DNA from: a virus | Virus record (IMG/VR): IMGVR_UViG_3300044712_000928 | Location: 1-29,384 of that record | Reading direction: 5' to 3' (one strand) | Length of the DNA: 29,384 bases | Shown here: positions 410-23,130 of the stretch, piece by piece | How positions within the stretch are numbered: the first letter of the stretch is position 1 | Layout: the number at the start of each line of letters is the position of its first letter | Position numbers and translations under genes: made by a program | The notes under the pieces: generated by a model | Told to the model about the DNA's origin: nothing | Seen by the model: the letters and a program-made list of their open reading frames with translations, nothing else | Database searches by the model: none

Positions 410-883
410 TTACCAATTTCGTATTTGATCCCAAAAGAGTCTAGCTCTTTCAGAAAGCTTTAGTTTAGTTATTGGCTCTATTTGTCCGATAATAAACTCT
501 TCAGTTTGCCTATTAAGATATTTAATTACATTAGCCTCAGCTACTATTACATATCTTATTAGCTTATAAGATTTTTTAATATCTTTATAGTCAGGAGATG
601 TTATTTCAATCCATACATTTGATAGAATAGATGAAGTATTTCCCCAACTTCCTTTGCCAAAAGTTTCTTCACAATCCTTTTTATTATCAGCGATGAATTC
701 TTTTAATGGTTTTAAAAAGATTCTTTTTCGCTTGTCTTTTTCAGGATTTAAACTTATATTAACACTACTTTCCTGGTAGATGAGTTTAATACCTCCTACA
801 CCAGGATCAATATCTTTTTCTACCAGCTTCTCTTTGATCACTGGGGGAAAAGCTTCAATTAATGAATACTTTCTTGCAGGCAT
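410..883 (-). CDS. Unknown 157-aa protein
   Basis: Complete ATG-to-TAA frame encoding a soluble, Lys/Ile-rich protein. The N-terminus (MPARKYSLIEAFPPVIKEKL) is followed by predicted strands (GGIKLIYQESSVNISL). The middle contains a Trp/Gly segment (FGKGSWGNTSSILSNVWIEI) and the C-terminal half is helical, ending ERARLFWDQIRNW. There is no signal peptide, membrane segment or catalytic motif that I can name. It is the first coding sequence after the long non-coding tract, and a 9-bp inverted repeat begins 33 bases upstream of its start. Function unknown. Confidence 0.8.
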   Translation of the reverse strand: MPARKYSLIEAFPPVIKEKLVEKDIDPGVGGIKLIYQESSVNISLNPEKDKRKRIFLKPLKEFIADNKKDCEETFGKGSWGNTSSILSNVWIEITSPDYKDIKKSYKLIRYVIVAEANVIKYLNRQTEEFIIGQIEPITKLKLSERARLFWDQIRNW

Positions 884-1981
884 ATTATATATGAGTTTAA
901 TAAATTAATTAAAAATGTAAGCAGTATTTTACTGCCAATTTAGTAAGCATACGTCCTCATTCGTAAACCTATTGAAATATTTGCAAAAGTAGCCTACTGC
1001 TTACGATATTCTGTTATTTCTTAGTGATACATGGTATCTTTCTATTATTCTAAAGTTTAATATTCAGTTCACATATGACTGATAACTATATGTTATTACT
1101 AGTGCCCTCGGCTGGCTAGAGCTAATGAGACTCGTAGTTCACATATTGAAATGTTTATGAAGGGAACATTCACCCCGATTATTAATTATATTAAGTTTCT
1201 TTTTAACAATTGTAGTTATAAAATACTTTATGAATTATAGTATTTCGTTGAACCTTTTTATCTGTCAACCAATATTTGGTAGGAACTACAAGTTAATCTT
1301 TGTAATTCTTAATGACAGAGCTGTCATCTCTACTTAGTTCTTGTTCGACTGACTTATTATAGGACTATTTTCGTCATATTACTACGACCAGATAGTTAAT
1401 AACTGTAATGTAACACGTACATTTTGTATAGTAACTTAAATTTATTATTAATAATGACCCGACTTGTCTATCTCTTTATGAGATATAATACTTTTTGTAA
1501 GATTTGTAATATCTGATAGAAAATTCAGATACTAATTGTAATCGTAGATTACATTTTGATCAACTGCCTCATAAGTTTGGACCTTAGAGCAAATTGATAC
1601 GGAAGTTTAAAAATTTTTTAATTGAGCCTTTCATTACAATGTTAGTTAAAGTCCACTGTAACTTTCTATCAACCCCCAATTTTATATGAGGTAGCTGAGC
1701 TAGTCTTATTTAGGAACTAGTGATCCACACCAAGCATTTTCGTATTAGATTGATAGCTACATCCCGAAGGCAGCCTGTTTACGACAGACCCTATATTCTA
1801 AATACTATTCCTATTTTCCAAGGTGGCTTAGTTATAATCTACAACTAGATAGTTCACGCAATACATGATCACCCTTTGTTGTCCTGAGATTATATTTTCT
1901 TCGATAACCTTAATAAGTATAAATCTAGGGAATTTCACCCTTACCGTTATCATAAATGTTATGTATAAAAAGATAATTTAC

Positions 1982-2070
1982 AAAATAATAAAGGGATTAG
2001 AGAGCTAATTTGACATGTTGACACCTGTGTCTGTCGTAATAATTAGACTAAAAAATCCCTTTATTATTTT
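1982..2070 (-). ncRNA. Long hairpin with 16-bp perfect basal stem
   Basis: Bases 1982-1997 (AAAATAATAAAGGGAT) are exactly complementary to 2055-2070. Inside are CTAATT/AATTAG, then GACA/TGTC and GACAC/GTGTC around a two-base apical loop, giving one long, periodically interrupted hairpin. It could be a stable RNA, a processing site or a bidirectional terminator, because both arms end in A/T tracts. It lies about 190 bases downstream of the ANL-like gene. The complementarity is certain; the role is inferred. Confidence 0.6.
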
Positions 2071-2140
2071 ATATCTTATATGCCGTCGATATATCATATT
2101 GTAGACATATAGATAAACAATTTGTTTAAATTATGAAGCG

Positions 2141-2216
2141 CGTTTAAGATGTTCCAGAGTTGCATGCTATTACATTGTAATAATTATACTCTAGCTTGAT
2201 TAAAGATCTTATAACG
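2141..2216 (-). ncRNA. Closed stem-loop element downstream of the ANL-like gene
   Basis: CGTTTAAGAT pairs with ATCTTATAACG (10 bp, one bulged T). Nested inside are AGAGT/ACTCT and ATTAC/GTAAT. It is the first element met by a minus-strand transcript leaving the 503-aa gene and may protect the 3' end or stop transcription. Confidence 0.4.
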
Positions 2217-2261
2217 TCAATTTATAATACTTATTGTGTGCATTTAAGGATGTACTTTCTC

Positions 2262-3773
2262 CTATCTTATGAATGGTGTATCCCTAAGAATACGTCCATA
2301 AGAATCTCTTGAGAATGGAGTAAGTTCTACTAAAACCCTGTCAATTTTAGAGAATGTTTCTACTCCATTATTTATTTGATTAATTTCGTTTTCGATTAAA
2401 GCTCTTATAGTACCTACAGGATATTTTTTATAATCACAATAGTTTTCGTCAACATTTACTACCATAATTAATTCATCATCCTCTATTACTAATAAACAAT
2501 CGGATACTAAATTTATTCCTTTTAATATCCTTTCAGTAGTTCTAGGAATAACAAATCCGAAATCTGTGTTAAGAATTTCGTCGGTTCTACACTCAAATTT
2601 TAGATTACCATCGTTATCAAAATTTCCAATATCTTCTAATTCACAATCTTTATATAATTCCTTTTCAGGATCTACTAATTTGAAATAAAATAATTGATTT
2701 TGTGAACTATTGAAATTAGATTTGACTTTAAGAAAATCACTTAAAGGTTTACCTACAGTTCCTTTGATAAAATTCTTAGGGGAACTATAAGTAGCTATTC
2801 CACATGTTTCAACTGTACCATATGTAATAGTATATGGAAATTTAACTTTCTTAAGTATCTCCTCTATTTCAAAAGATACTTCACTATTTAAAATAATGAG
2901 AGTTTCTATATTAGGAAATAGATTTTTTAGATGCCTTTTAATTCTCCATCTCCTTAACTTTCTAAGTTTAAAATCATAGAGAAATTCAGTAAGAAAATCA
3001 CTCTTATTCTCAATATACTCTCTCCATAAAGACTCAAATTGATATGCTGTTAGTATAACAACTTTAGTAATCTGGGATTTAAGAGTATATTTTAGAGAAT
3101 AAGGAGTAGCAAATTCTACTGGAAGCGTAATAGTTATTCCATGTAATAATGGTAATAATAGACATAATATATAGTTATATGTAAAATCTTGATAATTTAC
3201 ATAATTCCCATACTGTGTTGTATAAATATTTTTTTCGTTTAAAATCTTCAATGTGTCTATTATCTCAATAGATGTTATTGAGATCATTTCCATTTTTCTA
3301 GGAGTAAATACTATAATTCCTTGACTATCTGACTCTTCATCTAAATATAAATACTGATTTCTTAATAAACGATTAGATGAATTAAAATTAAATTCTATAT
3401 CACTGACATATATAATGTCATGTATTAAAAACATTTTATCTTTATTTAAGTCCTTAATATCAGTTATTAATACAGATACTCTTGAGTATTGTAGAATATT
3501 ATATATCTTCTTTTTACTTTGTTTATTACTAAATAATACAAGAGTATGTTTAGATAATAATACTGCTATGAATATTATAATCCATTCTACTGAATTATTA
3601 GCTATTAATGCTATTTTAGTTCTTCTTGGATAAGCATCATTTAGAGTTTCTGCTAAGTTCTTCGAAGTATTTAAAATATATTCATATGTATACTCTATAT
3701 TATTACTAATAACAGCTACTAAATCAAAAGAATTTTCAAATATTCCTATAATTAGTTTTCTTAACCTATTCAT
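2262..3773 (-). CDS. Divergent ANL-superfamily (AMP-binding, acyl-/aminoacyl-adenylate) protein with degenerate motifs
   Basis: The 503 residues follow the full ANL architecture. The N-terminal Rossmann-like part matches the family (KIALIANNSVEWIIIFIAV, residues 53-71, then VSVLITD at 99-105). The A5-type motif YGTVE is at 318-322, followed by GTVGKPL (338-344). The A7/A8 hinge region EDIGNFDNDGNLKFECRTDEI is at 380-400, with Arg396 retained. The C-terminal lid has FSKIDRVLVE and ends in an A10-like SYGRILRD (491-498). Family members join ATP and a carboxylate into an acyl-adenylate, then transfer the acyl group to CoA, a carrier protein or an amine. Key residues deviate: the Gly/Ser/Thr-rich A3 P-loop is replaced by FTPRKMEMISIT (156-167), the TGD Asp is Asn, and the A10 Lys is Arg494. 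It may be a pseudoenzyme or have altered chemistry. It ends with TAG, and its start overlaps the preceding gene by 8 bases. The family call is confident; the activity is not. Confidence 0.78.
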   Translation of the reverse strand: MNRLRKLIIGIFENSFDLVAVISNNIEYTYEYILNTSKNLAETLNDAYPRRTKIALIANNSVEWIIIFIAVLLSKHTLVLFSNKQSKKKIYNILQYSRVSVLITDIKDLNKDKMFLIHDIIYVSDIEFNFNSSNRLLRNQYLYLDEESDSQGIIVFTPRKMEMISITSIEIIDTLKILNEKNIYTTQYGNYVNYQDFTYNYILCLLLPLLHGITITLPVEFATPYSLKYTLKSQITKVVILTAYQFESLWREYIENKSDFLTEFLYDFKLRKLRRWRIKRHLKNLFPNIETLIILNSEVSFEIEEILKKVKFPYTITYGTVETCGIATYSSPKNFIKGTVGKPLSDFLKVKSNFNSSQNQLFYFKLVDPEKELYKDCELEDIGNFDNDGNLKFECRTDEILNTDFGFVIPRTTERILKGINLVSDCLLVIEDDELIMVVNVDENYCDYKKYPVGTIRALIENEINQINNGVETFSKIDRVLVELTPFSRDSYGRILRDTPFIR

Positions 3774-4152
3774 TAGTTTCTTCCTTTATTTCAAATCGTT
3801 TAATATTTTGTAGGATAGGTTTATCTCGATTTATTATTTTATCGAGTTGATAAGTCTCACATGTTTCATGTAAAGTTATTATAAAGGCTGAAACATGATC
3901 ATTTTCGTCTTCTACATTGCTTATATTTATACTTAGAGATCCGTCATGATTATTGATTTGAAAAACGGAATTATCTCTTGTAGAAATAGTTGCATATATA
4001 GATTTAAAACATTTTTGAATTCTAGCTTGTTTAGCTAATAATCCATGAGTTCCTTGTTTGTTAATGATAAACTTTTCATATTCAAGATCTTGCATCTTGT
4101 CTAGAAGAGCTTTACTGTTTATATTTACCATGATTTGAGTTTTGATTTCCAA
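3766..4152 (-). CDS. Unknown 128-aa protein of the ANL-like cassette
   Basis: Lies directly upstream of the ANL-like gene and overlaps both neighbours (8 bases with the ANL-like gene, 41 with the 194-aa gene), so the three are probably translationally coupled. The sequence mixes strands and helices (SIYATISTRDNSVFQI, DHVSAFIITLHETCETYQL) and has a charged tail ending KEETNE. It has no membrane segment, signal peptide or recognisable catalytic motif. A second ATG eight codons in (MVNINSKALLDKMQ) would shorten the upstream overlap to 20 bases and may be the real start. The length is atypical for acyl-carrier proteins and I see no DSL phosphopantetheine site, so it is not an obvious carrier partner. 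Family not recognised. Confidence 0.75.
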   Translation of the reverse strand: MEIKTQIMVNINSKALLDKMQDLEYEKFIINKQGTHGLLAKQARIQKCFKSIYATISTRDNSVFQINNHDGSLSINISNVEDENDHVSAFIITLHETCETYQLDKIINRDKPILQNIKRFEIKEETNE

Positions 4153-4696
4153 TACGTAATCGTCTTATTCTAGGAATGAGTTCTACTCCTTCTATTTGAT
4201 TATCTAGATAAGACTTTATTTTGGGAGTATTTCCCTGCATGTCCTTAAAATTATTAAGAACAGTAGCTACTTTAACAAATGGTGTTAAAGATCCCTCTTT
4301 TATTTCTACTCTATTATCTTTATAAGTAGATAACGGAATAATATATTTATCAGGACTTTTATTTAAATCAGGTTCAACCCTCTCTAATAATAAATATCCT
4401 CTTTGAAGATCATTTACAGTAAGATGCCAATATTTATCGTTTTCTTCATACCCAAAATTTATTCCTTGAAATAGTGGATATAATAGAAGTTTAATTTTAG
4501 CTTCATATTGTTTAATACGATCTTCCATTTCTTCAATATTCTCTTTTTGATTCTTAGTATTTGAATAAAAAGGAATAGGTATCTTTGCAAGCGTCTCTAT
4601 TTTTCTTATCTCTAAGAGTATGGCTATTCTTAATTGTAATATACATTTTGAATAGTATATTATTTTTTGAATCACCGTTAGTTCTTTTTGTTTCAT
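4112..4696 (-). CDS. Unknown 194-aa protein, first gene of the ANL-like cassette
   Basis: Begins MKQKELTVIQKIIYYSKCIL and has an amphipathic helical N-terminal half containing a probable coiled coil (NIEEMEDRIKQYEAKIKLLL). A more globular C-terminal half follows (WHLTVNDLQRGYLLLERVEP, GSLTPFVKVATVLNNFKD). The very end is basic and Asn/Lys-rich. The start lies 40 bases past an intrinsic terminator, so this gene opens a discrete three-gene unit. No known domain is recognised. Confidence 0.75.
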   Translation of the reverse strand: MKQKELTVIQKIIYYSKCILQLRIAILLEIRKIETLAKIPIPFYSNTKNQKENIEEMEDRIKQYEAKIKLLLYPLFQGINFGYEENDKYWHLTVNDLQRGYLLLERVEPDLNKSPDKYIIPLSTYKDNRVEIKEGSLTPFVKVATVLNNFKDMQGNTPKIKSYLDNQIEGVELIPRIRRLRIGNQNSNHGKYKQ

Positions 4697-4787: not shown

Positions 4788-6983
4788 TTATTTTACTAAT
4801 TCCTGAATTTTAGAATTATTTTTAATTACTTTATTGATAGTATTTTCTCTATCACTAACTTTAGTTCCTGACCATTTTTTATTTTTTGGAAGATAATTAT
4901 CTCTCAATTCATTAAAACGATCTTGATAAGTCTTGTACTCTGATAATAATAGAAATTCAGCCATCAATTCATGAATCTTATTAGTATTTGACATTGTGCT
5001 AATAGCATCGAATTTTTTTATGTCAACTGCTTGTTTAGATTCTTGAGGCTTATTCTCTTCTTTTGTTTCAGTAGTAGAAGACTGTTCGAAAGTATTACTT
5101 TCCGATCTCTGAAGTTCAATTTGTTCTTGTTTGTTTTCAGAAGATTCTTCAACTTTAGTCGCTTCTTTTGCTTTCTTACGTTCTTCAGAAGTAGCATTTA
5201 CGATTCCATTAAAGAATGCAGCTTTCTTTTCAGAATTCCATTCTTTAGTTTCTTCGAAGTTATTACCGTATTGTTCCATAAGATTACTAGCTACTTCCCA
5301 TCCATTAATAGACTTAGGTTTGTCTTTAACGATCATAGTAATTTCTTTCTTCTCAAAAACAATATTGATAAGAAGATCCTTAAATTCGTCGAAAGTCTTA
5401 CATAACTTAGCAGACTCCCAAACATCTGGTAGAGAGTTTTCGATTGACAAATTTGTCATTATTTTAACTCGTTCCTTTGATTTGTTAACTAATTCAGGAT
5501 TTTCAGTTTTTACTTCTGTTTCTAACTCTTTAGCAAATTCTTCAATTTTTTTCTTACCTAATGTATTTCGATAAGCTTTTTGACTAAAGAATTTACGAAG
5601 TTCATTAAGAACATAGCCACCTGTTTCAATAGTTTTCTTTACGATACTTTTAGCTTCGTTTTTAACTTCAGGAGCTATTTCATCTTTACCTTCATAAGCT
5701 GCTTTTTCAGCTTCTTCAACAGTTTTTTGAGATTTCTTGAATTCGATAACCAATTTTGCAAATAATCCTTTATCGGTTTTATCGAATCCTTCATCTACTA
5801 CATTTACTATTTCTTTATCAAAAAATGCCTTAACTTCTTTAAATGCAGTTTTAGGATCTGGATTAGCTTTAAACATACTAATACACTCATTCTGGAGAGT
5901 TTCGTATGTTAATCCAACTGTTGTAACAGGAATTTCTGTATTGGACTTTTTAGGACTTACAACCATTGGGGCAGACTCAATTTTAACAGCTTCAATATTA
6001 CAGATTTTACAAACATTTGCAAATATTTTATCCGCATCATTTGGAAAATCGGTATGAATTTTAATTGCTGTAGTTGCAGTAATTTGACCAGCTTTCATTT
6101 CTTCTACCGCTTGCTGAGTTATTTCTTCAACTAAACGAATAGAATTAGAAAGTTCAATTAAATGATTATTCCAGAAAGCTAAAGTAATATTCTGAAAATC
6201 TTCAAATGGTTTAGTTGTTACACCGTGACACCATGGAAGTATTTCATTTAAAAATCTCTTTTCAACTTCTTGTTGAGATTTTTTCGCAACTTCAGATTTT
6301 TCAAATAAGTCAATTGACATATTTAAAGCTTCTTCAACTTTGCCTTCCTCAACTAAATGTCTTGCTATAGCATCAATTTCGGATTCAGTAGAAGCTGTGA
6401 TAACAAGTTTTTGAACAGTTTCAGATAATATTGCGGGAGTACCAAATATTACTTTACGTTCATATCCTTTAAAATTATTTGCTTCTTTTTTCTGATTCTT
6501 AACTTTATCAACATCTTTATTAATAACTTTAAGATCAGCTTGCTTATTCTTTTTGTTAAAGTCATGTTTGATTACATTATCTTTAACTTCAGTTTTAGCC
6601 ATTTGTTCTTCTGGCTCTATCTTTTCTTCTTCACTTTCATTAACTTCCTGTACATCCTCTAAATTGAGATTTAGTTGAGGATTGGGAACAATAGTCGCTA
6701 TATTACCATTAATTCCATAAGCTTTCTTTGTTAAAGCAATCTTATGTTTGAAAATAGAGAATAAATCTGTTTTTAATAGATTTAATTCCTCAGCTTTTGC
6801 TCCTGGAAGATTCTTTAATAGTTCAAGAAATTTAATACCTTCAGTAAGTTCTTCAGATGAAGTTATTACTGACATTTTAACAATTTCTGCATCTGACAAT
6901 CCTTTTAGATCAAGATTACCATATGCATCACTTATTCCTTTTATTGCTTCCTCTGGAGATTTTAATACTGTACTTTGTTTCAT
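4788..6983 (-). CDS. Large charged helical protein of unknown function (731 aa)
   Basis: Soluble and almost entirely helical by composition, rich in Lys, Glu, Asn and Ala. Residues 1-90 form one helical segment (ISDAYGNLDLKGLSDAEIVK). An acidic linker follows (about 109-127, with NESEEEKIEPEEQ), then a basic stretch (about 139-170, HDFNKKNKQADLKVINKDV). A long helical core runs to about 600, then another Glu/Gln-rich linker, and a compact C-terminal domain ends INKVIKNNSKIQELVK. No polymerase, primase, helicase or nuclease signature is visible, and there are no Cys clusters or membrane segments. It is the longest minus-strand gene, has its own structured leader nine bases upstream of the start, and is followed by a strong terminator, so it is probably an independently controlled unit. 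Frames on the opposite strand are shadows of its codon bias. Function unknown. Confidence 0.85.
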   Translation of the reverse strand: MKQSTVLKSPEEAIKGISDAYGNLDLKGLSDAEIVKMSVITSSEELTEGIKFLELLKNLPGAKAEELNLLKTDLFSIFKHKIALTKKAYGINGNIATIVPNPQLNLNLEDVQEVNESEEEKIEPEEQMAKTEVKDNVIKHDFNKKNKQADLKVINKDVDKVKNQKKEANNFKGYERKVIFGTPAILSETVQKLVITASTESEIDAIARHLVEEGKVEEALNMSIDLFEKSEVAKKSQQEVEKRFLNEILPWCHGVTTKPFEDFQNITLAFWNNHLIELSNSIRLVEEITQQAVEEMKAGQITATTAIKIHTDFPNDADKIFANVCKICNIEAVKIESAPMVVSPKKSNTEIPVTTVGLTYETLQNECISMFKANPDPKTAFKEVKAFFDKEIVNVVDEGFDKTDKGLFAKLVIEFKKSQKTVEEAEKAAYEGKDEIAPEVKNEAKSIVKKTIETGGYVLNELRKFFSQKAYRNTLGKKKIEEFAKELETEVKTENPELVNKSKERVKIMTNLSIENSLPDVWESAKLCKTFDEFKDLLINIVFEKKEITMIVKDKPKSINGWEVASNLMEQYGNNFEETKEWNSEKKAAFFNGIVNATSEERKKAKEATKVEESSENKQEQIELQRSESNTFEQSSTTETKEENKPQESKQAVDIKKFDAISTMSNTNKIHELMAEFLLLSEYKTYQDRFNELRDNYLPKNKKWSGTKVSDRENTINKVIKNNSKIQELVK

Positions 6984-10502: not shown

Positions 10503-10660
10503 TTGATTAATACGACTAATGTAGTTTCGTCCTATCTCATCAGGTATTATTTTATAGTCTCTAGGATGACTTTATATTTTAAAGGACGCATCACCTCAAA
10601 TTGATTGAAATGATGCCTCCTTTAGGCTTTCACGTAGCCTTTAGTTATGAAATTAATCAA
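10503..10660 (-). ncRNA. Four-way-junction-like leader element
   Basis: TTGATTAAT (10503-10511) pairs perfectly with ATTAATCAA (10652-10660). Inside lie three hairpins in sequence: TCGTCCTA with TAGGATGA (10527-10534, 10562-10569, one G-U); AAAGGA-C-GCATCA with TGATGC-C-TCCTTT (10581-10593, 10611-10623, one C-C mismatch); AGGC/GCCT (10624-10627, 10637-10640). The closing stem ends 12 bases before the 52-aa gene start. Likely RNA element; role unknown. Confidence 0.55.
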
Positions 10661-20191: not shown

Positions 20192-22576
20192 ATGGATTTA
20201 TATTATAAACGAACCGAATTTCCAGTACAAAAACTACCTTTAGTTAAGAAGGATGAAGCATGGCGTAAAGCATGTACAGATGTTCTTATATCTAGAGAAG
20301 GTAGTACATATGTATCTGGACGTTCTAGAAGAGATACATTAAGAGTTAATTATGATTTATATAATGGAATCTTTAATGAAGATGACTTCCGTTATGTTAT
20401 AAATCCTTTTAACGTAGAAGATGGCTTTCCTGCACATCCTCAAAACATGAATATCATTAAACCAAAAATAGATTTACTTATAGGCGAGGAAACTAAAAGA
20501 CCCTTTAATTTTAAAGTATTCTCTACTAATGATGAGAGTGTTTCTCAAGTTCAGGATTTTAAAAAGAAATCATTAATTAATGAATATCTACAATCTGTAG
20601 TAGACGATATATCTAATGAAGACGAAGTAGATCAAAGATTACAAGAGATAGATACTTATGTAAAGAGTAAGTATAGTACTGCTGCTGAACAAGCTGCTTA
20701 TAACTCTCTCTTATATCTTCGTCAACAACTTAGTATAGATCATGAGTTTGTTAAAGGATGGAAAGATGGTTTAATATCTGGAGAAGAGATATATTATGTA
20801 GGTATTGTTAATGGAGAACCAATGTGCGAACGTGTTAATCCGTATCAATTTACTTATGATAACGATCCTGATGTAGAGTATATAGAAGATGGAGATTGGG
20901 CTATACGAAGATTTTTAATGTCTCCAGGAGCTATTTATGATAGATTTCAACAGCAAATGACAGAAGAAGAGTTGGATAAGTTACTCTCTATGGTTGGTGG
21001 TGATAATTTACATCGTAGACCAGGAGATGTTAACTACAACTCTATTATATATAGAGATAAGATTATCTCTGATATAAATAATGATGAATTCTTTAAAGGA
21101 CAATTATTACCAGTATGGCATGTTACATGGAAATCATTTAAGAAAATAGGGTATTTACGTACTACCGATCCTGAAACTGGAGAACAGATAGAAGATATAG
21201 TAGACGAGACCTATAAGTTAGATGAAGAAGAAAAGATGTCTGGAGTTACTATAGAATGGGATTGGATGACTGAAGTATGGGAAGGACATCGTATTGGTAC
21301 AGATATCTATTTAGATATACGTCCAGTACAATATCAATATCAATCATTAGAAAATCCTAAGACTTCTAAACTTCCTTATGTAGGAGCTAGATATAATGCT
21401 ACTAATACTAGAAATAGATCTCTTGTAGATACTATGAAACCATTACAATATATGTATATTGTAATTTGGTATAGACTAGAATTAGCTCTTGCTAGAGATA
21501 AAGGTAAGGTTCTTACTATGGATATTACACAGATTCCAAAATCAATGGGATTAGATGTAAAACAATGGATGCATTATCTCTCGGCATTAGGAGTAAACTT
21601 AGTAAATCCTTATGAAGAAGGTTGGGATATTCCTGGAAGAGAAGGAGGTAAACCCTCATCATTTGGACAGATAGGACAAGTTGATTTAAGCATGAGTAAG
21701 ATAATTGGAGATTATATTGGACTACTTGATAAAGTAGAGGATATGATTGGAGAATTATCAGGAGTATCTAGACAACGCGAAGGACAAATTCAAACTAGTG
21801 AGTTAGTCGGAAATGTACAACGTGCTACAGTACAATCATCTCATATTACAGAACCTCTATTTGAGATTCATAATCATATTAAGAAAAGAGTTTATACAGC
21901 AATGTTAAACTGTGCTAAATTTGCATGGTCTGAAAGTAATCGTAAGAAATTGCATTTTATTGTTGATGATTTTGTTAGAAAATTTATTGATATAGATGAT
22001 GATTTCTTATATTCAGATTTTGATGTATTTGTATCAGATAGTACAAAAGAATCTCAAAACTTAGAAGCCGTTAAAAGTCTTATGCAACCAGCTATGCAGA
22101 ATGGTGCCACTATTTCTGATGCTATAGAAATTCTTACTACAGAAAGTATATCTGAAATTAAACGTAAGATGAAAGACATAGAAGCTCGTAGAGAACAACA
22201 GATGCAGAAACAACAGGAAGCTGAACAACAAATGATGCAACAACAACAGCAAATGCAAGCACAATTACAAGCTGATGATAATAGGATTAAAGAAGAAGAT
22301 TCTATTCGTAAAGCTGAAACAGCAATTGAAGTTGCTAGAATAAATGCTGAAAGTAAAAATGCAATGACTGAATCATTTGAAGGAAGTCCAGAAGTTAATG
22401 AAACAGAATTATTTAGGCTTCAATTAGATAGAGATAAAATAAAAGCAGAGGATAGATTTAAACAAGCTAGTATTGCAGAAACTATTAGATCTAATAAAGC
22501 TCAAGAAGAAATTAAAAGAAAAGAATTAGTAATTAAACGTAAACAGGCTTCAAAGCCAACAACTACTAAGAAATAA
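20192..22576 (+). CDS. Portal protein
   Basis: 794 residues directly after TerL. It forms the dodecameric ring at the unique capsid vertex through which DNA enters and leaves. The N-terminal domain includes PQNMNIIKPKIDLLIGEETK and RPFNFKVFSTNDES, typical of long portal proteins. The middle has repeated Tyr/Asp/Glu-rich wing segments and QIGQVDLSMSKIIGDYIG, then LDKVEDMIGELSGVSRQREG. The C-terminus is low complexity: a Gln/Met-rich coiled coil (about 675-705) and a Lys/Arg-rich tail ending RKQASKPTTTKK, consistent with a barrel extension into the capsid. Large portal proteins with a long charged C-terminal region are characteristic of crAss-like phages. The stop overlaps the next ATG (TAATGG). 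Confidence 0.9.
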   Translation: MDLYYKRTEFPVQKLPLVKKDEAWRKACTDVLISREGSTYVSGRSRRDTLRVNYDLYNGIFNEDDFRYVINPFNVEDGFPAHPQNMNIIKPKIDLLIGEETKRPFNFKVFSTNDESVSQVQDFKKKSLINEYLQSVVDDISNEDEVDQRLQEIDTYVKSKYSTAAEQAAYNSLLYLRQQLSIDHEFVKGWKDGLISGEEIYYVGIVNGEPMCERVNPYQFTYDNDPDVEYIEDGDWAIRRFLMSPGAIYDRFQQQMTEEELDKLLSMVGGDNLHRRPGDVNYNSIIYRDKIISDINNDEFFKGQLLPVWHVTWKSFKKIGYLRTTDPETGEQIEDIVDETYKLDEEEKMSGVTIEWDWMTEVWEGHRIGTDIYLDIRPVQYQYQSLENPKTSKLPYVGARYNATNTRNRSLVDTMKPLQYMYIVIWYRLELALARDKGKVLTMDITQIPKSMGLDVKQWMHYLSALGVNLVNPYEEGWDIPGREGGKPSSFGQIGQVDLSMSKIIGDYIGLLDKVEDMIGELSGVSRQREGQIQTSELVGNVQRATVQSSHITEPLFEIHNHIKKRVYTAMLNCAKFAWSESNRKKLHFIVDDFVRKFIDIDDDFLYSDFDVFVSDSTKESQNLEAVKSLMQPAMQNGATISDAIEILTTESISEIKRKMKDIEARREQQMQKQQEAEQQMMQQQQQMQAQLQADDNRIKEEDSIRKAETAIEVARINAESKNAMTESFEGSPEVNETELFRLQLDRDKIKAEDRFKQASIAETIRSNKAQEEIKRKELVIKRKQASKPTTTKK

Positions 22577-23130
22577 TGGATATAAAGAAACCAACAAAAG
22601 AAACTAAAAGTTCAGGTACATATAAAGGAGGATTACCTGATAATATGTATAATTTAATTAATTCTTTAATAGAAGCAGAAGCTTTTAGTTCACAAATTTA
22701 TTTACAAATGGCTGCATGGTGTGATCCACAAGGATATACTGGAGCGGCTAAATTTTTCAAGAAACATGCAGAAGAAGAACGTAAACATATGCTAAAACAT
22801 TATGATTTTTTAGCTGATAAAAATATGTTGGCAATTACTCCAATGCTTAAGGAACCCCAGAAAGAATATATTGATTTAAATGATGTACTTGATACTGCAC
22901 TAGAACATGAATTTTTTGTAAGTGATACTTATGAAAAAGCTGGAGAAAAGGCATTATTAGAACCATGTCATCAAACATATCAACATTTACAATGGTATAT
23001 ACATGAGCAAGTAGAGGAAGAATCTCTTTTTCAAACTATAGTGGATAAAGCTAATATTTTGAGTAAGGGTGGAATAACAGGTCTCGCATTAATTGAGTTA
23101 GATGAAATGCTTGAGGATCTGGCAAATTAA
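22576..23130 (+). CDS. Ferritin (bacterial FtnA-type) in the capsid operon
   Basis: A four-helix-bundle ferritin-like protein of 184 residues. With an offset of 18, every iron ligand of E. coli FtnA is matched: Glu35, Glu68, His71, Glu112, Gln145 and Glu148 for the diiron ferroxidase site (FtnA 17, 50, 53, 94, 127, 130), and Glu67, Glu144 and Glu147 for the third site. Motifs are EAEAF, EEERKH, EHEFF and HEQVEEES. The enzyme oxidises Fe(II) and stores ferric mineral, or detoxifies peroxide; the complete site argues for activity. An N-terminal extension of about 20 residues (KETKSSGTYKGG) precedes the bundle and could act as a docking peptide. It lies between portal and scaffold-like genes, so virion packaging or use during assembly is possible but inferred. 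Confidence 0.9.
   Translation: MDIKKPTKETKSSGTYKGGLPDNMYNLINSLIEAEAFSSQIYLQMAAWCDPQGYTGAAKFFKKHAEEERKHMLKHYDFLADKNMLAITPMLKEPQKEYIDLNDVLDTALEHEFFVSDTYEKAGEKALLEPCHQTYQHLQWYIHEQVEEESLFQTIVDKANILSKGGITGLALIELDEMLEDLAN

Follow-up and report, generated by a model that had tools for sequence, protein, structure and literature searches.

A degenerate ANL homolog in a crAss-like phage

Does an ANL (AMP-binding) gene carried by a crAss-like phage encode a working enzyme, or does its product keep the fold of such enzymes for another use? The question is raised by an intact open reading frame (ORF) in a 29,384-nucleotide stretch of viral DNA, hereafter the window (IMG/VR record IMGVR_UViG_3300044712_000928, positions 1 to 29,384). 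The window is crAss-like by its terminase, portal, and major head PHROGs, as the initial annotation had proposed, and its closest named relative is cr118_1 (Suoliviridae).

2262..3773, minus strand: degenerate ANL (AMP-binding) homolog of 503 aa, with a PF00501 match, a full-length fold match, and three phage homologs

The 503-aa product was assigned by Pfam to the AMP-binding family PF00501 (E 8.1e-15; 54.9 bits against a cut-off of 29.9), whereas a PHROG search returned no match for it. NCBIfam matched it weakly to ANL ligases, with every equivalog score far below cut-off: menE was best (35.3 bits against 330), with FACL at 22.8 against 476 and AA-adenyl-dom at 25 against 317. Profiles of PDB chains placed weak similarity to adenylation domains in the N-terminal part of the protein. 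The nearest cellular relatives are AMP-binding ligases of Bacteroidales, at 19-28% identity.

An AlphaFold2 model built from a 30-sequence alignment reached a pLDDT of 77.1 and a pTM of 0.77, with poor confidence at residues 131-148, 265-270, and 350-379. Both the large N-terminal and the small C-terminal ANL domains are present in this predicted structure. Its best Foldseek match was the MenE-AMP structure 5bus (E 5e-23), and VIA-align superposed residues 1-503 on full-length ANL enzymes (Z 33.5, 454 residues, 3.9 A). Together with the PF00501 match, this full-length agreement bears out the whole ANL order and fold claimed in the initial annotation. Since the bacterial homologs in the alignment might impose the fold, an additional model was made from phage sequences alone; it was poor (pLDDT 46.7), and its top Foldseek matches were still ANL enzymes (E 5e-13). 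Judged by profiles and predicted structure, the ORF product is genuinely homologous to the ANL superfamily.

Homologs and a conserved gene block in related phages

Searches of viral and genome collections with the single sequence found no homolog, and the family opened up only through an alignment that included distant bacterial homologs. Three other crAss-like genomes from IMG/VR (92-96 kb) encode homologs of the 503-aa protein (P0005, P0006, and P0007). An alignment seeded with Bacteroidales ligases revealed a syntenic, 31% identical protein in the 92.6-kb genome L017, a second pass led to the copy in the 92.4-kb genome L104, and a hand-built degenerate pattern for PYTxT[YF]GxVExCGI recovered the fourth copy, in the 95.6-kb genome L126. 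Two of the other phage copies scored 30.2 bits (P0005) and 39.8 bits (L104) against PF00501. The terminases of L017, L104, and L126 are 58-77% identical to those of the window clade.

Neither the family profile nor PF00501 found anything in nine further Crassvirales genomes, among them crAss001 and cr118_1. An ANL gene was also missing from twelve IMG/VR contigs with related terminases, but as fragments of 4-20 kb these say little. Three records labelled 'Bacteriophage sp.' from human feces (MT836920, MT835586, and MT835965; L002, L003, and L004) were rejected as phage homologs: the contigs read as bacterial, and the neighboring genes resemble a sigma-54-type regulator and the dehydrogenases of glucose-6-phosphate and 6-phosphogluconate. 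Most of 57 'phage' records with a bacterial-type ligase likewise look like bacterial contamination and were set aside.

The ANL gene lies within a block of the following features in the window.

4788..6983, minus strand: conserved upstream gene of 731 aa with no known family, 27-29% identical to syntenic 990-aa and 730-aa proteins
4112..4696, minus strand: second partner ORF of 194 aa, a conserved upstream neighbor at 32-39% identity
3766..4152, minus strand: partner ORF of 121 aa from an ATG at 4131 (128 aa from a TTG), homologous and overlapping in four phages
884..2261, minus strand: ORF-free region of 1.38 kb 3' of the ANL gene, a candidate large structured RNA, with low divergence and compensatory pairs
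410..883, minus strand: conserved 157-aa gene that closes the block, 36-37% identical, in syntenic position

The same order recurs in all four phages: a protein of 727-990 aa, one of 175-194 aa, one of 115-129 aa, the ANL protein, an ORF-free stretch of 1.4-1.7 kb, and a protein of 157-179 aa. L104 and L126 have one additional gene after the block's large protein. The ANL start overlaps the stop of the 115-129-aa partner gene by 8 (window), 1, 20, and 20 nt, an overlap that would suggest translational coupling and a complex of the two products. Neither partner protein matched a known family in Pfam or PHROG. The terminase, portal, and capsid genes are encoded on the other strand from the block; in L017 the strand of the block also encodes a uracil-DNA glycosylase and a transglycosylase.

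Two further genes of the relatives were recorded. Upstream of the ANL block, and on its strand, L017 (4104-4460, plus strand, E 1e-19) and L104 (5776-6126, plus strand, E 7e-19) encode ribosomal L7/L12 C-terminal domains. The C-terminus of an extra ANL-block gene in L104 (8535-8930, plus strand) resembles a UBA/EF-Ts-like helical domain, an unproven likeness at only E 0.11 to UBA_4.

Loss and retention of ANL motifs

In ANL enzymes, the leaving phosphates are bound by motif A3 and the ribose by A7, whereas A5 stacks on the adenine and holds Mg, and adenylation is driven by the A10 Lys. The A4, GGA, and A5 segments line the acyl/adenosine pocket of ordinary members. We compared the phage proteins with 27 Bacteroidales ligases in the 30-sequence alignment. 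At least 25 of the 27 ligases agree in 108 columns, of which 16 were kept and 59 were lost in all three phages compared. The segments concerned are as follows.

3270..3317, minus strand: lost A3 phosphate loop (residues 153-168 at its position), with IIVFTPRKMEMISITS against bacterial NYTSGTTGfsKGVM; only 2/16 invariant across the four phages
3147..3191, minus strand: A4 segment (residues 195-209), with the pocket His changed to Phe197 and a new invariant YNY..LLPL; 8/15 invariant
2880..2909, minus strand: position of the GGA loop (residues 289-298), now LIILNS (GGA to LNS); 6/10 invariant in phages
2784..2843, minus strand: A5 segment KFPYTITYGTVETCGIATYS (residues 311-330), with Glu322 kept and Thr changed to Val321; 12/20 invariant in four phages
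2631..2633, minus strand: Asp381, the A7 ribose-binding Asp, kept in the window protein; Asp in all 30 alignment rows
2586..2588, minus strand: Arg396 (A8), kept; invariant in the alignment and in all four phages

The A3 consensus [ST]SG[ST]TGxPKG is absent from all four phages (FTPRKM---EMIS and equivalents); the loop carries a three-residue deletion, and its conserved Gly and Lys residues are all gone. The alignment thus agrees with the earlier reading that the loop is replaced by FTPRKMEMISIT. The A5 YGTVE noted previously is present in the window protein, and all four copies hold PYTxT[YF]GxVExCGI, in which the Tyr/Phe, Gly, and Glu are retained and Thr is replaced by Val. Losses beyond those first described are the GGA, A4 His, and A5 Thr replacements and the deletion of A6, which is absent from all four copies.

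Two of the initial assignments need revision. The A7 Asp was reported as Asn, but it corresponds to D381 (LEDIGNFD against HTGDLGTMD), and the Asn intended was presumably N384. Asp is also present in two other phages and Asn in the fourth copy, and the Thr-Gly ahead of the Asp is lost in the phage proteins. The reported change of the A10 Lys to Arg494 stands insofar as R494 occupies the Lys column of other ANL families, where the four phages have R494 (window), Arg, Arg, and Asn. However, R494 alone is weak evidence because Ser (KKS-IKR) is what the closest bacterial relatives carry there. The reported retention of Arg396 holds, as this residue aligns with the invariant A8 Arg.

The Bacteroidales relatives are long-chain acyl-CoA ligase-like proteins (about 555 aa, NF004837-like, e.g., P0001 and L018) with whole-length homology and the same domain order. 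They share with the phage protein the A5 FPxTxxYG..E, the A8 Arg, and invariant W64, G319, E322, and E414, but keep the full A3, GGA, A5 TE, A6, TGD, and KTPKKSIKR that the phage copies are without. These ligases often occur as two tandem paralogs of about 555 aa (L018, L019, L034, L036, and other Prevotella loci). That such ligases are the closest cellular relatives fits an auxiliary metabolic gene, taken from a Bacteroidales host, for an ordinary acyl-CoA synthetase. Nevertheless, this reading is very improbable, given that the A3 loop, A6, and A10 Lys are absent from all copies and that the best NCBIfam equivalog score is 35 bits against 330.

Collectively, the alignment and the model indicate that the phosphate-positioning and adenylation machinery (A3, A5 Thr, A6, A7 Thr-Gly, and the hinge/A10) is gone in every copy. 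The phage protein is thus homologous to ANL enzymes but, judged by its motifs, is no working ANL enzyme. The motif losses are shared by the homologs in the three other crAss-like phages far beyond chance.

The window protein still has Tyr318-Gly319, Glu322, Asp381, and Arg396, and weak ATP/AMP chemistry is conceivable from the retention of the last three. An active protein with altered chemistry, for instance one that hydrolyzes or transfers an acyl or aminoacyl adenylate made beforehand or that uses a donor other than ATP, would have no need of the A3 loop. In its favor, Tyr318, Glu322, Asp381, and Arg396 are present in the window protein, and Glu322 and Arg396 are invariant in all four phages. 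We consider this activity unlikely, since the fourth phage has Asn for the A7 Asp, the phages are without the A5 Thr, A6, and the A10 Lys, and other known catalytic signatures were not found.

Constraint on the protein and its proposed function

The two closest ANL copies, in L104 and L126, are 76-77% identical, with dN 0.14, dS 0.69, and dN/dS 0.206 over 470 codons; the phage ANL protein is under purifying selection. With dN/dS well below 1, a pseudogene reading is rejected. Change at most of the conserved ANL positions, and an evolutionary rate above that of most neighbors (76% identity against 85-97% for most), might be expected of a functionless former host gene in decay; yet such decay is very improbable for a gene that is intact in four phages, with this dN/dS, a hyperconserved A5 block, and its synteny kept. 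In the same comparison the small partner evolves at a similar pace (76-78% for the two proteins), and by analogy the fast evolution of the pair may resemble that of host-facing proteins.

Invariance across the four phages is uneven. In the pocket segments (A4, GGA, and A5), 26/45 positions (58%) are invariant, as compared to 8/47 (17%) in the phosphate/hinge segments (A3, A7-A8, and A10) and 47/411 (11%) in the remainder. The differences (pocket vs. rest, p 7e-12; pocket vs. phosphate/hinge, p 5e-5) are indicative, as we picked the motif windows ourselves, using the bacterial alignment, and about three independent lineages are represented by the four phages. This contrast suggests that the phosphate-handling half was released from constraint while the acyl/adenosine pocket was kept but changed; the new pocket residues conserved among the phages are FxYNY, LNS, and T[YF]GxVExCG.

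The loss of the parts that handle ATP phosphates in a protein that selection keeps suggests that its work is probably binding and not synthesis. We give about half of our confidence to a non-adenylating ANL-fold pseudoenzyme with a reshaped ligand pocket, made together with the two small partner proteins. The cleft would still bind a small ligand, either adenosine-containing (AMP, CoA, or an acyl or aminoacyl adenylate) or another metabolite, and would not adenylate it. The protein would act as the binding or sensing subunit of a complex with the overlapping partner proteins, and its position opposite the virion genes makes action on the host during infection likelier than a part in the virion.

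A less probable, though still considerable, alternative is a structural descendant in which the ANL fold, with no small ligand, serves as a protein-protein platform for the two partners or for a host protein, for instance a host ANL enzyme paired with the phage protein. The conserved overlap with two small genes, the loss of catalytic motifs, and an N-terminal ANNSxEW helix conserved outside the motif segments (7/14) are all compatible with a platform. A platform alone is not expected to show conservation centered on the ligand-cleft segments (26/45 vs. 47/411), and the contrast between pocket and phosphate/hinge conservation is the main reason that we prefer a ligand-binding pseudoenzyme to a bare scaffold, although pocket conservation could instead reflect folding or a protein interface. 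Of the repurposed ligand-binding pseudoenzyme proposed in the initial annotation, the pseudoenzyme part is upheld by the kept fold, the lost ATP motifs, and the sharing of those losses, whereas ligand binding is something we infer. Interference with the fatty-acid or siderophore metabolism of the host, also proposed there, is unsupported by the evidence here; no partner gene points to either.

An ORF-free stretch downstream of the ANL gene

In all four phages, the ANL gene is followed immediately by an ORF-free stretch. Outside the window it lies at the following positions.

L017, 11483-12973, plus strand: ORF-free stretch directly downstream of ANL
L104, 11417-12900, plus strand: ORF-free stretch directly downstream of ANL
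L126, 424-2079, minus strand: ORF-free stretch directly downstream of ANL

Between L104 and L126, 35 of 1239 positions of the stretch differ (2.8%), as compared to synonymous differences of 8.7%-63% in 15 flanking genes; a recombination event could add to this low divergence. Five base pairs of a local junction are changed on both sides, with none in slid controls, and three such pairs occur in a second helix that the window shares; with only two to three sequences per count, these numbers are suggestive. No Rfam family matches the stretch. In cr118_1, a 1.9-kb ORF-free stretch occupies a comparable place, with marginal sequence similarity. Taken at 1.2-1.4 kb, the stretch behaves like a new large structured RNA, for which it is a candidate.

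Folding energy was discarded as support for this RNA, as same-strand coding controls score as low or lower (z -7.5, -4.8). The ANL coding sequence itself (window 2263-3640, minus strand) has an unusually stable predicted RNA fold (z -7.5 vs. dinucleotide shuffles), possibly owing to uneven base composition. That the ANL pseudoenzyme, its two overlapping partners, and the adjacent RNA would together form a ribonucleoprotein machine peculiar to these phages, in which the former adenylate pocket senses a metabolite or nucleotide, is a speculative and improbable extension.

Relation to known ANL proteins

MenE, o-succinylbenzoate-CoA ligase (5bus, 5gtd, 3ipl), is the best fold match and also ranks near the top in the NCBIfam and PDB profile searches; however, it is an active ligase with only about 15% identity to the phage protein, which scores 35 bits against 330. 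The adenylation domains of nonribosomal peptide synthetases (LgrA, GrsA/1amu, TycA) share profile similarity in the N-terminal subdomain, but the phage protein is without their carrier-protein/condensation context and without the phosphate loop. An ANL fold also occurs in viral proteins from uncultured Caudovirales (A0A6J5L563 and A0A6J7WHT9) and in the Hyperionvirus AMP-binding enzyme; these are likened to the phage protein by fold alone (only 11-13% identity by structure alignment), and none is labelled crAss-like.

To our knowledge, whole-fold ANL pseudoenzymes kept by selection are little described. Our literature search found no report of one in Crassvirales and nothing relevant that links AMP-binding or acyl-CoA synthetase genes to crAss-like phages. 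The words 'acyl' and 'ligase' are absent from the main text of the main crAss comparative-genomics paper (PMC7886860). Within this literature and the nine other Crassvirales genomes, the original statement that crAss-like phages have no established ANL member holds. A clade-specific, fast-evolving, selected pseudoenzyme encoded opposite the virion strand may well be a factor that interacts with the host, and one protein with a defined pocket would make the effect of this unannotated crAss-like block on Bacteroidota hosts testable.

Other features of the window

A RAGATH-1 hammerhead ribozyme was detected at 10509-10572 on the minus strand; its 56.4 bits barely pass the gathering score (56.3). 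A ferritin-like gene (22576-23130, plus strand; PF00210, E 1.4e-24) lies between the portal and capsid genes; it was not found in L017 or cr118_1 and is present in L104.
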